10,366 bases of DNA from Mailhella sp. GTDB taxonomy: Bacteria; Desulfobacterota; Desulfovibrionia; Desulfovibrionales; Desulfovibrionaceae. The stretch spans positions 1 to 10,366 of the forward strand of contig JAKSQA010000019.1 of NCBI GenBank assembly GCA_024404335.1, written 5' to 3'. Position 1 is the first letter of the stretch. Every line of letters begins with the position of its first letter. This document shows, piece after piece, positions 2,589 through 9,209 of the stretch. The position numbers and the translations under genes are program-made. The notes under the pieces are model-generated. The model was given only the letters and a program-made list of their open reading frames with translations. It was not told where the DNA came from and ran no database searches.

Positions 2589-3467
2589 ATGGCACTCAGA
2601 AGCATGACCGGATTCGGACGTTCACGTCAGGAATCCGATTTCCTATCGCAGACCTGGGAAATCAGAAGCGTCAACAACCGCTTTCTCGACCTTAAATGGA
2701 AACTTCCTCCCCAGGCCAGGAACATGGAATCCAGGTTCGAAAAAATCGTTCGGGCCGCAGCATCCCGGGGAAGGGTGGAGGTCACTCTCAATCTCCAGCT
2801 CAAGACCGCATCCGCAACGATGTTCGATGCCCCTCTTGCCGACTCCATGCTTTCAGACCTCACCGCCTATGCCGCCCGTCGAGGAGAATGCCTGACCGTC
2901 AATTATATGGACCTGCTGCGTGTGCCTGCGCTCTGGAGTTCCGCGGAAGACGCCGATGACAGCCTTCTGTTCACCGAGCTCGCCACCGGTCTTGAGGCTG
3001 CGCTTGCCGACTGGACGCATTCCAGGGAAATCGAGGCTCAAAGCCTCGCTGCCGACCTCAGAGGCCGTTTCGATTCTCTTGCCTCATGGATAGAGGCTAT
3101 TGGAGAAAAAGCTCCGTAGATAAAGACACAGCGCTTCGAACAGGTGAGGACACGTCTTTCGGAGATGCTTTCATCCATGGGGTCGGCGCTCGATGAGGGC
3201 CGCTTCCTTCAGGAAATGGTCATCATGGCTGACAAGCTCGATGTGACCGAAGAGCTGACCCGGCTTCATTCCCACCTTGAAAGGCTGAACTCCCTGCTGC
3301 AGTCAGGAGAAGACGCCGGCAGGAAGCTCGACTTCACCCTTCAGGAAAGTTTCCGCGAAATCAACACCTGTGGAAACAAAATCCAGGATGCCGCGGTTTC
3401 CGCTATAGTCGTCGACTGCAAAAACGAGCTCGAAAAGTGCCGCGAACAGGTTCAGAACCTGGAATAG
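2589..3467 (+). pseudogene. yicC: YicC/YloC-family endoribonuclease gene interrupted by an in-frame TAG
   Basis: The family is a metal-dependent endoribonuclease implicated in RNA turnover; the genes often sit next to gmk, as here. The 5' part (176 codons) has the hallmark start LRSMTGFGRS, then WEIRSVNNRFLDLKWKLP and SRGRVEVTLNL. TAG at 3117-3119 ends it. In the same frame, 3120-3464 continues with IKTQRFEQVRTRLSEM, EGRFLQEMVIMADKLDVTEEL, a GRKLDF block and the usual ending EKCREQVQNLE, stopping at TAG 3465-3467. Together they give 292 residues, close to E. coli YicC (about 287), with no indel at the join. By recall of homologs, the stop falls at a position usually Glu after Ala/Met-Pro, so one base change (for example GAG to TAG) could explain it. 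Start ATG 2589 follows AAGGAG. Reinitiation at GTG 3144 is possible, but no good ribosome site precedes it. Readthrough or sequencing error remain open. Confidence 0.85.
3117..3119 (+). other. In-frame amber codon splitting yicC
   Basis: TAG follows GCT CCG (Ala-Pro) and precedes ATA AAG. Both flanks are homologous to one continuous YicC protein in this frame. TAG also appears as the genuine terminator of yicC itself (3465-3467) and of recJ (5873-5875), so TAG is not globally reassigned to sense in this genome. Confidence 0.9.
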
Positions 3468-3504: not shown

Positions 3505-4122
3505 ATGAATGAACTTCCACGCAGAAAAGGCCTTCCTCTGGTAATCTGCGCCCCCTCAGGTGCAGGCAAGACCACTCTCGTCACCAAGCTCAGAGCTGAA
3601 TTTCCGCTCGACTTCTCCATTTCCTGCACCACACGGGCCCCCAGAGGGAATGAGAAAGATGGAATAGACTACATTTTCCTCTCCAAAGACGAGTTCCGCA
3701 GCCGTATCGACGCCGGATATTTCGCCGAATGGGCCGAAGTACACGGCAACTACTACGGCACCCCGCTGAAGCCTGTCCGCGACAGCCTTGACGCCGGCCG
3801 CGACATACTGTTCGATATCGACGTGCAGGGGGCGGCTCAGATTTCCCTCTCCCTGCCTGAGGCCCGCTTCGTGTTCATCCTTCCCCCAAGCATAGGCGAA
3901 CTCGAGCGCAGACTGAGGGGCAGAGGCACCGACAGCGACGAATCCGTCCGACTCCGTCTTTCGCACGCCGCTTCCGAAATCAGGGAAAGCCACTGGTTTG
4001 ACGCCGTCGTCGTAAACGATGATCTCGATGCCGCTTATGTCAGGCTCCGCGCGTTCTACCTGGCGGACACACTCCAGCCATCGCTGAACCCTGCACTCGC
4101 GCAGGCAGTCATCTCAGTCTGA
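3505..4122 (+). CDS. gmk: Guanylate kinase
   Basis: Cytoplasmic kinase that makes GDP from GMP and ATP, essential for GTP/dGTP supply. The P-loop is APSGAGKTT at residues 16-24. The GMP-binding SxTTRxPR motif is at residues 40-47 (Ser40, Arg44, Arg47), followed by Tyr56, the GNYYGTP loop (81-87) and the FDIDVQGA strand (103-110). The lid arginines lie in LERRLRGRGTDSDE. Length 205 is typical. The start ATG 3505 has CGGAG upstream at 3493-3497; the nearby ATG 3500 is out of frame and stops at once. It lies 37 nt after yicC. The small remA/DUF370 gene that often separates yicC and gmk in other bacteria is absent, as is rpoZ downstream. recJ begins 13 nt after the stop. Confidence 0.96.
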   Translation: MNELPRRKGLPLVICAPSGAGKTTLVTKLRAEFPLDFSISCTTRAPRGNEKDGIDYIFLSKDEFRSRIDAGYFAEWAEVHGNYYGTPLKPVRDSLDAGRDILFDIDVQGAAQISLSLPEARFVFILPPSIGELERRLRGRGTDSDESVRLRLSHAASEIRESHWFDAVVVNDDLDAAYVRLRAFYLADTLQPSLNPALAQAVISV

Positions 4123-4135
4123 CCGGACTTCCGAT

Positions 4136-5875
4136 ATGCGAACGACGAAGGAATGGAAAATCCGAAAGGAAGGAGGGGATCCTCTTCCTCCCGATAACTA
4201 TCTTGCCGGACTGGCGCAGAGGCTCCATGTGTCGCTGCGCTTTGCCCGCATGCTCTGGTCACGCGGTTTTCAGAGTTTCGACGCCATCTCCGCATATCTC
4301 AGCCCCGGCCTTCGTCTGCTCTCCCATCCTTCGCTGTGGCCGGGCATCTCCGATGCGGCCCGCCTTATTGCCGACGGCCTTCTGGCAGGAAGAAAGCTTG
4401 CGGTATGGGGCGACTATGACGTCGACGGTGTGACCAGCACCGCCCTGGTCCTCCAGGTCCTCGAACACTACGGCTATTCCGCCCTGTGGCATCTGCCCGA
4501 CAGACGCACCGAAGGCTATGGCATGAACACTGAAGGCATCGATGAGCTGGCAGCACAGGGGGTAACGCTTCTCCTTACGGTCGACTGCGGCATTTCCGAT
4601 GCCGAAGCGATCAGGCACGCCCGGGAAATCGGCATGACGGTCGTGGTGTCCGACCACCACCTTCCCCCCGAGGAGCTCCCCGAAGCCGATGCCATCTGCA
4701 ATCCGAGACTTGAAGACTGCCCGTGCAGGAATCTGGCCGGCGTCGGCGTCGCCTTTTTCCTCATGGCCGAAGTGAACACACGCATTGCCGAAGCGAAGTC
4801 CATGCAGCGGATGGACCTCAGGAACACACTCGACCTTGTCGCCCTCGGCACGCTGGCCGACCTTGTGGAACTGGAAGGGCAGAACAGGATCCTCGTCAAA
4901 AACGGCCTGCTTAAGGTCACGGAAGGAAAGCGCATAGGACTTGCCGCACTTAAGTCGGCCAGCGGGTTCACCCCGGGAGCCCCCGTAGGTGCGGGGCAGG
5001 TCGTCTTCAGCATCGCCCCCCGCATCAATGCCGCAGGGCGTGTCGACTCGGCGGAGTCATCACTCGCCCTCCTTCGCGCCTCCGACCAGAACACCGCGTA
5101 TGATCTGGCCAGACGCCTTGACGAACTGAACACAGCCCGCCGGGCGGAAGAGGAGCGTATCACAGCCGAAGCTCTCCTTCAGGCTGATGCGGAACCCGAC
5201 GCTCCGGCCGTCATAGTGTTCGGAGACGGCTGGAACCAGGGCGTCATAGGCATCGTCGCATCAAGGCTTGTCGAACGATACCACAGGCCATCGATCGTTT
5301 TGTGTACTGACGGACAGACGCTCAAAGGATCGGGGCGCTCGATATCCGGATTCGATCTCCATGCGGGGCTTGCCGCCTGCGCGTCCGAACTCATCTCATA
5401 CGGCGGGCACAGAATGGCCGCGGGACTGCGGGTCTCCCATGAACGGTACGAGTCCTTCCGCGCGGCGTTTCGAAAGGCCGTGGTAAGCGAACTGGGCGAC
5501 GTCATGCCCGAGCCGATACTCCACATTGACGGGGAACTTGACTTCAAGGCGGCATCGGATTCCGTTTTCCTCAAGGAACTTGATATGATGCAGCCTTTAG
5601 GCGTAGGTAATCCCGAACCGGTGTTCACAGCATCTTCCATTCTTATCCGAAGCAGACGCCTTTTCGGCCCGAAAAAGGACCATGTGATGCTCGAGCTTCT
5701 TGACGAGAGCTGCGGCATAACCATGAGCGCGAAGGCATGGCGCCAGGCGGATGACTTCCCCGCCGACATGGAAGGCCGGAGGATACGCATAGCCTACTGC
5801 CCGGCGGTGGACAACTATAACGGGACTCCCGTCCCTATCGTGAAGATCAAGGACTGGAAACTTCTGCCTGCCTAG
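4136..5875 (+). CDS. recJ: Single-stranded-DNA-specific exonuclease RecJ
   Basis: 5'-3' exonuclease on single-stranded DNA, acting in RecF-type recombination, mismatch and base-excision repair. The DHH core holds the metal ligands: DYDVDG at 93-98, TVDCG around Asp150 and SDHH with Asp173-His174-His175. A conserved ALGTLADLVEL segment and SIAPRINAAGR follow. The DHHA1 domain has FGDGWNQGVIGIVASRL, GSGRSISGFDL and GGHRMAAG (His425). The C-terminal OB-like domain contains MQPLGVGNPEPVF. 579 residues matches E. coli RecJ (about 577). ATG 4136 is chosen because residues 6-9 (EWKI) and LHVSLRFARMLWSRGF align with the usual N-terminus and no closer in-frame start exists. The ribosome site there is weak, so coupling to gmk, which ends 13 nt earlier, is likely. 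Confidence 0.96.
   Translation: MRTTKEWKIRKEGGDPLPPDNYLAGLAQRLHVSLRFARMLWSRGFQSFDAISAYLSPGLRLLSHPSLWPGISDAARLIADGLLAGRKLAVWGDYDVDGVTSTALVLQVLEHYGYSALWHLPDRRTEGYGMNTEGIDELAAQGVTLLLTVDCGISDAEAIRHAREIGMTVVVSDHHLPPEELPEADAICNPRLEDCPCRNLAGVGVAFFLMAEVNTRIAEAKSMQRMDLRNTLDLVALGTLADLVELEGQNRILVKNGLLKVTEGKRIGLAALKSASGFTPGAPVGAGQVVFSIAPRINAAGRVDSAESSLALLRASDQNTAYDLARRLDELNTARRAEEERITAEALLQADAEPDAPAVIVFGDGWNQGVIGIVASRLVERYHRPSIVLCTDGQTLKGSGRSISGFDLHAGLAACASELISYGGHRMAAGLRVSHERYESFRAAFRKAVVSELGDVMPEPILHIDGELDFKAASDSVFLKELDMMQPLGVGNPEPVFTASSILIRSRRLFGPKKDHVMLELLDESCGITMSAKAWRQADDFPADMEGRRIRIAYCPAVDNYNGTPVPIVKIKDWKLLPA
4167..4189 (+). other. Hairpin holding an internal Shine-Dalgarno-like sequence in early recJ
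   Basis: AAGGAGG (4170-4176) is a near-perfect ribosome-binding core inside codons 12-14 of recJ. It is folded against CCTCTTCC (4181-4188) with a 4-base loop (4177-4180), one bulged G (4173) and a closing A-T pair (4167/4189). No in-frame start codon sits at the right distance downstream, so it does not mark an alternative recJ start. Function, if any, is unknown. Confidence 0.45.
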
Positions 5876-5945: not shown

Positions 5946-7043
5946 ATGAGCAAAGACAGCTTCAATCCCTTTGCATCCCTCGACGTCAAGTCATTCCCCG
6001 AACGCAGGAAAGGCGCTCCGGCTCCGCACGTGCGGGGGCATAAGACCGTTGTGAAGAACCCGAACGCACGGAAATCCCCTGATGATGAGGATTCCGAAAT
6101 GTTCCTCCAGTATCTTGGGATGACCGAAGCCGCCGGTTCAAAAGGCTCTTCCGGCGGACGGAATGCACCTGCCAAAGCAGCAAAAGGCAGGGCTTCCGCC
6201 GAAAAACCCACATACGCCGATGCCGGTCCGGCTCTATCCGAAGCAGGCATGCGTGAAGCGCTCGGCGGGCTTGGGAAGAGCTTCCGCTCCATGCGCCCGG
6301 AACCCGCTGTTAAGGCTGATGCTTCCGCTCAGGATGACGAATGCCGTCACGGTACGGATGAGCACAGAACCCTTGTGCAGATGGCGAGGAATGCCAGACG
6401 CATCGCGAAGGCGGATGACGGAAACGCTCCCGCCCGGGAACTCGGCTCCCCCGAGGCGGATGCCGACGACAGCAGGGATTTCCTCAGCGCCGTCAAGGGA
6501 ACGAAGCGGCTCGGAGGTGCGGGACGGGACGTGCCGGCCGAACCTGAGGTGCAGAGCGTTCCCTATACGGATCCGCGGCATCCTCTTCAGGATTTCATGG
6601 AGGGCAAGGTCGAATTCTCCGTAGCAAGCACCGACGAATATGCTGAAGGCCATGTCGTGGGGCTTGACCTCATGGTCGTCTCACAGCTTCAGTCGGGGCA
6701 GCTCAGCCCAGAGGCCCACATGGACCTCCATGGCCTGAACAGCAGCCAGGCATACAGCAACCTCGTGGGGTTCTTCCGCAGCGCCTGGTACAAGGGGGTC
6801 CGGGTCGTACTCATTGTGACAGGGCGAGGACTCAATTCATTCAACGGGATGCCCATACTCAGGGGAAAGGTGCAGGAATGGCTCACGCACGACCCCTTCA
6901 AAAGGATCGTTCTTGCGTTCTGTTCGGCCCGTCAGGAGGATGGAGGCGCCGGAGCCTTCTATGTGCTTTTGCGCAAGTACAGAAAGGGCGCGGGGAAAAT
7001 CCGATGGGACACCATGCCTGAGGATCCCGACCTTTATCTTTGA
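5946..7043 (+). CDS. Smr-domain protein with long disordered N-terminal region
   Basis: The Smr domain is the nuclease-type domain found at the C-terminus of MutS2 and in stand-alone bacterial proteins; stand-alone forms have been linked to DNA or RNA cleavage, so the substrate here is not certain. Residues 1-200 are rich in Ala, Lys, Asp, Ser and Gly and look disordered, apart from a short hydrophobic element (EMFLQYLGM, near 56-64). A conserved-looking linker, DFMEGKVEF to VVGLDLMVVSQLQSGQ, precedes the domain. The Smr signatures are DLHG (260-263), TGRG (292-295) and GGAGAFYVLLRK (from 333). ATG 5946 has GGAGG at 5932-5936, nine bases upstream. The gene follows recJ by 70 nt, perhaps as part of the same repair-oriented transcript. 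No MutS ATPase part is present, so this is not a truncated mutS2 by anything visible. Confidence 0.88.
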   Translation: MSKDSFNPFASLDVKSFPERRKGAPAPHVRGHKTVVKNPNARKSPDDEDSEMFLQYLGMTEAAGSKGSSGGRNAPAKAAKGRASAEKPTYADAGPALSEAGMREALGGLGKSFRSMRPEPAVKADASAQDDECRHGTDEHRTLVQMARNARRIAKADDGNAPARELGSPEADADDSRDFLSAVKGTKRLGGAGRDVPAEPEVQSVPYTDPRHPLQDFMEGKVEFSVASTDEYAEGHVVGLDLMVVSQLQSGQLSPEAHMDLHGLNSSQAYSNLVGFFRSAWYKGVRVVLIVTGRGLNSFNGMPILRGKVQEWLTHDPFKRIVLAFCSARQEDGGAGAFYVLLRKYRKGAGKIRWDTMPEDPDLYL

Positions 7044-8249: not shown

Positions 8250-9209
8250 ATGTCCGTCGATAAAACCGCTATTCTATTCCCCGGTCAGGGAGCCCAGGCC
8301 TTTGGAATGGGCCGGGCGCTTGCCGAATCCGATTCCGACATCATGGACCTGTGGAAGAAGGCAGAAAAAATCAGCTCCTTGCCTCTGCGCGAAATCTACT
8401 GGGAAAGCGATGATAATAATCTGATGGCCGAAACCCGCAACCTGCAGCCCGCCATCACCGTCGTCAACACCTCTCTCTGGCTTACAAGCGCCGGCAAAGT
8501 GACTCCTGCCGCGGCCGCCGGACACAGCCTGGGCGAGTTCAGCGCCCTTGCTGCAGCAAAAGTGCTCGACATAGACAGCGTGCTGGAACTCGTCTCCCTC
8601 CGGGGCAGACTTATGTCCGAGGTCGATCCTGACCACCTGGGCACGATGTGCGCTCTCATCCGCGTAACCCAGGAACAGGTTGAGGCTGTCGTCAAGGAAA
8701 TCGCCGAACAGTCCGGGAAGCTTGTCAGGCTTGCCAATAAGAACACTCCGGTGCAGTTCGTCATCAGCGGCCACAGGGATGCCGTGCTTGAAGCCGCTGA
8801 AAAGATAAAGGATGCCGCACCACGCTCAAAGGCCGTCCCGCTCGCCGTGAGCGGTGCGTTCCATACTCCGATGATGGCTGAAGCCGCAGCGGAATTCACG
8901 CGCCTGCTCGACAGCAAGGACTGGCATGATGCGGCCTTCCCCATCTACTGCAATGTAAACGGCGCCCCGCTTACCGCAGCGGAAGAGCTGCGGAGCGTGA
9001 TGCGCAGACAGATGACATCCTCGGTCTGCTGGATTGAGACTGTTGCAAACCAGTGGCGCGATGGAGTGAGACGCTGGATAGAGTTCGGTCCTCAGGGAGT
9101 CCTCACCAGAATGGTCCGCCCGATCCTTACGGGTGAAGGGGCTGCCGATGGCAGCTATGCGACCGTCCATATTCCGAACAAAGAAGCTTTGGAAGCATTC
9201 GAAGGATAA
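8250..9209 (+). CDS. fabD: Malonyl-CoA:acyl carrier protein transacylase
   Basis: Moves malonyl from CoA to ACP, supplying the extender unit for type II fatty acid synthesis in the cytoplasm. GQGAQ is at 12-16. The nucleophile elbow is GHSLGE with Ser93. Arg118 (SLRGRL) is the carboxylate-binding Arg, and His205 in SGAFHTPMM is the catalytic His. The C-terminal block is WIEFGPQGVLTRM. The 319 residues are normal (E. coli about 309). At the position of E. coli Gln250 (in a VQW context; Arg in many homologs) this protein has Cys260 in SSVCW. AAGGAG at 8237-8242 precedes ATG 8250 by seven bases. The gene is not in a fab cluster within this window; glpX is upstream and argS starts 3 nt after its stop, so it is co-transcribed with argS. 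Confidence 0.96.
   Translation: MSVDKTAILFPGQGAQAFGMGRALAESDSDIMDLWKKAEKISSLPLREIYWESDDNNLMAETRNLQPAITVVNTSLWLTSAGKVTPAAAAGHSLGEFSALAAAKVLDIDSVLELVSLRGRLMSEVDPDHLGTMCALIRVTQEQVEAVVKEIAEQSGKLVRLANKNTPVQFVISGHRDAVLEAAEKIKDAAPRSKAVPLAVSGAFHTPMMAEAAAEFTRLLDSKDWHDAAFPIYCNVNGAPLTAAEELRSVMRRQMTSSVCWIETVANQWRDGVRRWIEFGPQGVLTRMVRPILTGEGAADGSYATVHIPNKEALEAFEG

Follow-up and report, generated by a model that had tools for sequence, protein, structure and literature searches.

An in-frame amber codon in yicC of a Mailhella draft genome is most likely an ordinary nonsense codon

Introduction

An in-frame TAG inside an otherwise complete gene can be an ordinary stop, a codon that is read through, the boundary between two separately translated pieces or an error of the draft. 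We addressed this question for yicC in a window that represents one whole contig (C101; 10,366 nucleotides) of a fragmented Mailhella draft genome (1,422,346 bases, 316 contigs, 69.32% complete). Besides yicC, the window encodes an NlpC/P60 protein, a UPF0004/radical SAM protein which we take to be MtaB, guanylate kinase (gmk), RecJ, an Smr protein, GlpX, a FabD-like acyl transferase and part of arginyl-tRNA synthetase. No tRNA was found in the window and no Rfam family matched it at gathering thresholds.

Results

A single amber codon separates the two YicC domains

The translated frame of yicC (2589..3467, plus strand) is open save one internal stop, TAG 3117..3119, and ends on a TAG as well. 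The 5' piece (2589..3119, plus strand) consists of 176 codons and the amber stop and matches the N-terminal YicC domain (PF03755, E 9.6e-35 in the profile search), and the 3' piece (3120..3467, plus strand), with 115 codons and the terminal TAG, matches the C-terminal domain containing the residues proposed to be catalytic (PF08340, E 3.9e-40). The two domains that characterize YicC/YloC proteins are thus present in one frame with the stop between them. Along the 291 positions of TIGR00255 the 5' piece covers 2-174 and the 3' piece 183-291, neither of them reaching the cut-off of this family alone, and one TAG was counted inside the family match. The two pieces add up to 292 codons, as many as in the best-matching relatives in the database. 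The initial annotation had described a single amber codon in an otherwise full-length yicC whose halves sum to the normal family length, and both statements were confirmed. Inspection by eye revealed no homopolymer at the TAG.

In E. coli YicC, exchange to alanine of M5, N28, R30, E216, E217, F244, R251, E252, R280 or E281 abolished cleavage, and a catalytic role was proposed for the four glutamates among them (PMC10793500). All ten positions, mapped by hand on alignments, are present in the two pieces of the window. Seven of them, including all four proposed catalytic glutamates, are encoded beyond the stop, so the 176-residue product should be inactive. If the TAG acts as a plain stop, translation would end at codon 177, leaving an N-terminal fragment of 176 residues devoid of the four glutamates, and the allele would be null for RNase YicC.

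The stop interrupts a widely kept gene at a variable position

A whole-protein match to yicC was found in 265 of 288 genomes of the family (203 of 205 if only near-complete genomes are counted), and among the family matches listed the window's own copy is the only one with an internal stop. The C-terminal half was matched in 37 of 41 genomes (own genome included) and contained no stop in any of them. The comparison with sister strains proposed by the initial annotation yielded an uninterrupted gene in all 15 other genus members having a match. Hence, the stop breaks a real and widely kept gene. Three genus genomes (G002, G004 and G008) had no yicC match. Loss of the gene in these near relatives was considered and rejected: gmk is likewise unmatched in G002 and G008 and reaches a 27% match in G004, and a full mtaB orthologue is present in none of the three (33 residues at 70% in G004), therefore these absences represent gaps in the drafts.

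To describe the position of the stop, loci were cut out for 29 of the 36 matching relatives (own genome excluded). The aligned column holds E in seven, D in seven, S in four, A in three, G in two, Q in two and L, V, N and H in one each, and none of the 29 has a stop there. The column is therefore variable in this alignment. Glutamate, which the initial annotation had named as the usual residue, is indeed the joint commonest one, but not the rule, as it occupies only 7 of 15 sequences within the genus.

In the protein databases, the 12 best named records listed for the C-terminal half belong to Mailhella (77-88% identity). A yicC of the same species did not turn up there: the most similar full-length protein is 73% identical, and the best identities for the separate halves were 65% (5' half) and, among short proteins, 86% (3' half). 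A search for proteins consisting of the C-terminal part only returned 81 matches, in which fragments from contig ends are mixed with possible splits.

The two halves show no clear decay

Pairwise comparison of the 3' half with seven genus members gave pN values of 0.116-0.138 and pS values of 0.644-0.742, silent sites being near saturation and dS values accordingly rough. We further compared window-to-sister with sister-to-sister protein distances in 8 of 10 named genus taxa, namely those with all four gene pieces present (recJ was dropped with two sequences only). The ratio was 2.70 for the 5' half (bootstrap 2.21-3.44) and 2.19 for the 3' half (1.49-3.66), as compared to 1.87 (1.56-2.29) for mtaB and 6.10 (4.01-10.80) for gmk. 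The 5' half thus exceeds mtaB somewhat but stays far below gmk. With the ten key residues kept and the divergence of both halves within the range of the two intact neighbours, the lesion looks recent. That the halves lack clear decay is a weak statement, as the comparison comprises two neighbouring genes only, one of which, gmk, is itself unusually diverged. Absent decay would be expected of a recent change, of a false change and of continued function, and does not separate the three.

Independently of yicC, gmk (3505..4122) stands out as unusually diverged in its own lineage, at 6.1 times the sister-to-sister distance versus 1.9-2.7 for mtaB and the yicC halves.

Translational restart downstream of the stop

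Continued function could be achieved if ribosomes restarted past the stop, with both protein pieces joining in a working hexamer. Three restart sites were examined for pairing with the anti-Shine-Dalgarno sequence. GTG 3144, put forward by the initial annotation as a site of reinitiation, showed no pairing (+0.5 kcal/mol, with 90.0% of window positions at least as strong) and was not supported. ATG 3165 reached -5.6 kcal/mol, and of all three sites the in-frame ATG at 3177..3179 (plus strand) is preceded by the strongest Shine-Dalgarno-like sequence (-6.6 kcal/mol, with 8.0% of window positions at least as strong). This value is close to that of the true yicC start (-7.2 kcal/mol) and exceeds those of gmk (-5.8 kcal/mol) and recJ (-3.2 kcal/mol), but the GGAG core is located 12 bases before the ATG, which is a long spacing. 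A C-terminal fragment starting at 3177 is possible; it would be without M5, N28 and R30. The spread of the key residues over both pieces is in line with a two-piece protein, and against it stands the fact that 0 of 29 relatives exhibit such a split. Overall, we regard a functional two-piece YicC as very unlikely.

No means of decoding TAG was detected

Alternatively, the TAG could be read through by pyrrolysine insertion, by another suppressor tRNA or by leaky near-cognate decoding, such that full-length YicC is made. The initial annotation had pointed to pyrrolysine machinery in Bilophila, and this premise is correct: Bilophila encodes pyrrolysine, with a TAG in its TMA methyltransferase gene (PMC7593587). 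The search for pylS, pylT and a CUA-anticodon tRNA that it proposed was run and found none of them in the own, 69%-complete genome. PylS (TIGR02367) exceeded the cut-off in 0 of 19 genus genomes, the own genome included, whose best score was 23.9 bits versus a cut-off of 178.15. Only the cut-off is meaningful for this profile, since it gave weak background matches in nearly every genome (58 of 59, and 13 of 14 among the controls). Searches with TIGR03912 returned nothing in the 59 genomes, the PylS-positive pair included, and are hence uninformative.

tRNA-Pyl was searched with an anticodon-arm pattern allowing at most two mismatches, which recovers both PylS-positive genomes with confirmation by ARAGORN. 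The own genome (69% complete) gave 0 matches. Among 39 pattern matches in the genus, 14 were tested with ARAGORN, including all five with a CTA anticodon, and none is a tRNA-Pyl: three are tRNA-Leu at the matched place, and no tRNA was identified at the others, including the five places that keep CTA. No CUA-anticodon tRNA was present among the 21 tRNAs found in the own, 69%-complete genome, to which 60 sampled own contigs added a tRNA-Sec. As the own genome is incomplete, the weight rests on the negative result in the near-complete members of the genus.

PylS above the cut-off was seen in 2 of 59 relatives. Both (G035:C75:29052 and G053:C71:8724; L140 and L141) belong to another family of the same order and carry PylS together with tRNA-Pyl.

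The use of TAG as a terminator was determined for gene ends in the sampled contigs. With a codon-position filter applied, 67 genes ended on TGA (29), TAG (26) or TAA (12); without the filter the numbers were 30, 27 and 12 for 69 genes. TAG is a frequent terminator, which speaks against a general reassignment, as the initial annotation had argued from its use as a normal stop in the window.

Taken together, the 3' half, whose frame and key residues are intact and whose amino-acid changes are few compared with silent changes, and the missing part of the genome leave some room for readthrough, and at a column tolerating many residues the inserted one would probably be harmless. Against it stand the 19 genus genomes without PylS above the cut-off or tRNA-Pyl, given that both control genomes were detected, as well as the missing CUA tRNA, the 26 of 67 genes terminated by TAG and the stop-free column in the relatives. 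Pyrrolysine readthrough is not supported by the own incomplete genome or the 18 other genus genomes, and readthrough of any kind is very unlikely in our view. Less likely still appears the specific scenario of a real TAG decoded by an amber suppressor tRNA whose gene lies in the unassembled portion of the genome, in a genus otherwise showing no amber decoding; full-length YicC would then carry an ordinary or an unusual amino acid at this permissive position.

A different stop codon was encountered elsewhere in the genome. On own contig C124 a small frame (L190:8979-9371), which we presume to be HesB/IscA-like, contains an in-frame TGA at 9153 where the sister has Cys (GG-C-SGPR), and another own contig carries a tRNA-Sec (L188:10429-10522). 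The frame probably encodes a selenoprotein; under the terms used, no article on selenoproteins of the HesB/IscA-like type was retrieved. The genome seems to recode TGA, yet shows no means for TAG.

Interruptions elsewhere in the draft

A consensus or assembly error would leave the organism's yicC intact and confine the TAG to the draft, or to a minority strain variant. Sixty sampled own contigs were scanned against one sister genome, yielding 118 accepted matches, 108 of which were sense-like in a codon-position test (37,342 aligned residues); stops at match edges were left out of the count. Three further clear interruptions were identified: at L152:6815 an efflux-adaptor-like gene contains a TAG, the adjoining gene is frameshifted, and L192 carries another frameshift. 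Together with yicC, four genes are interrupted among about 100 compared, so that yicC does not stand out in the draft.

The first two of these lesions break two adjacent genes on own contig C90 (L152, at ~5954 by frameshift and at 6815 by TAG), next to a long gene that is intact relative to the sister; the broken pair presumably represents parts of an RND-type efflux operon. The third is a frameshift-like break on own contig C157 (L192, ~5371-5473) in a gene matching a 713-residue frame of the sister. Several candidates were discarded. The stops at L176:7403 and L197:3805 failed the codon-position test. Those at L200:6852, L211:4481 and L178:1296 passed it but overlap intact open frames in other registers, which are likely the real genes and which we assume to encode ribosomal protein L31, ParA and a histidine kinase. 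The TGA at L190:9153 was not counted either, as it probably encodes selenocysteine.

The fragmentation and incompleteness of the draft together with the three additional interruptions argue for an error, and the lack of clear decay fits it equally well. Conversely, the site contains no homopolymer, and the eight other genes of the window exhibit neither a stop nor a frameshift relative to the sister. We therefore consider an error a serious possibility, if a less probable one than a real mutation.

Discussion

The TAG in yicC is most likely an ordinary, isolated nonsense codon. Somewhat more probably than not in our estimation, it is a real and recent null mutation: a single-codon change in the yicC of a Mailhella-like bacterium would have created a plain stop. 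The one internal stop, the 15 of 15 intact genus relatives and the lack of detected decoding machinery favour this reading; that the cell itself carries the change, and that its fragment has no activity, we infer. On the other side, a consensus error would look identical, no other genome of the species turned up (the 73% relative being the closest full-length protein), and, with 21 tRNAs and tRNA-Sec seen in a genome that is 69% complete, a suppressor could sit in the missing part.

Compared to the YicC/YloC endoribonucleases (TIGR00255; called 'RNase CS' in PMC10793500), the window copy shares the domain order, the 292 codons and the ten essential residues, but differs by the in-frame TAG between the domains and by pieces that individually stay below the family cut-off. 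With pyrrolysine-decoded genes such as the TMA methyltransferase of Bilophila (PMC7593587) it has a single in-frame TAG and conserved downstream sequence in common; here, however, the TAG is located at a variable column instead of a conserved site, TAG is in use as an ordinary terminator of other genes, and neither PylS above the cut-off nor tRNA-Pyl was found in the genome or the genus. A nonsense pseudogene or null allele resembles the window copy in its isolated stop, otherwise normal gene, intact relatives and lack of detected decoding machinery. It differs in that no clear erosion has set in yet, which points to a recent event or to a sequence error.

Unless a synthetase, a tRNA and a second genome agree, a lone in-frame TAG should not be taken as evidence for recoding when the draft is fragmented. 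If recoding were true, amber decoding would reach beyond methylamine metabolism to a housekeeping RNase.
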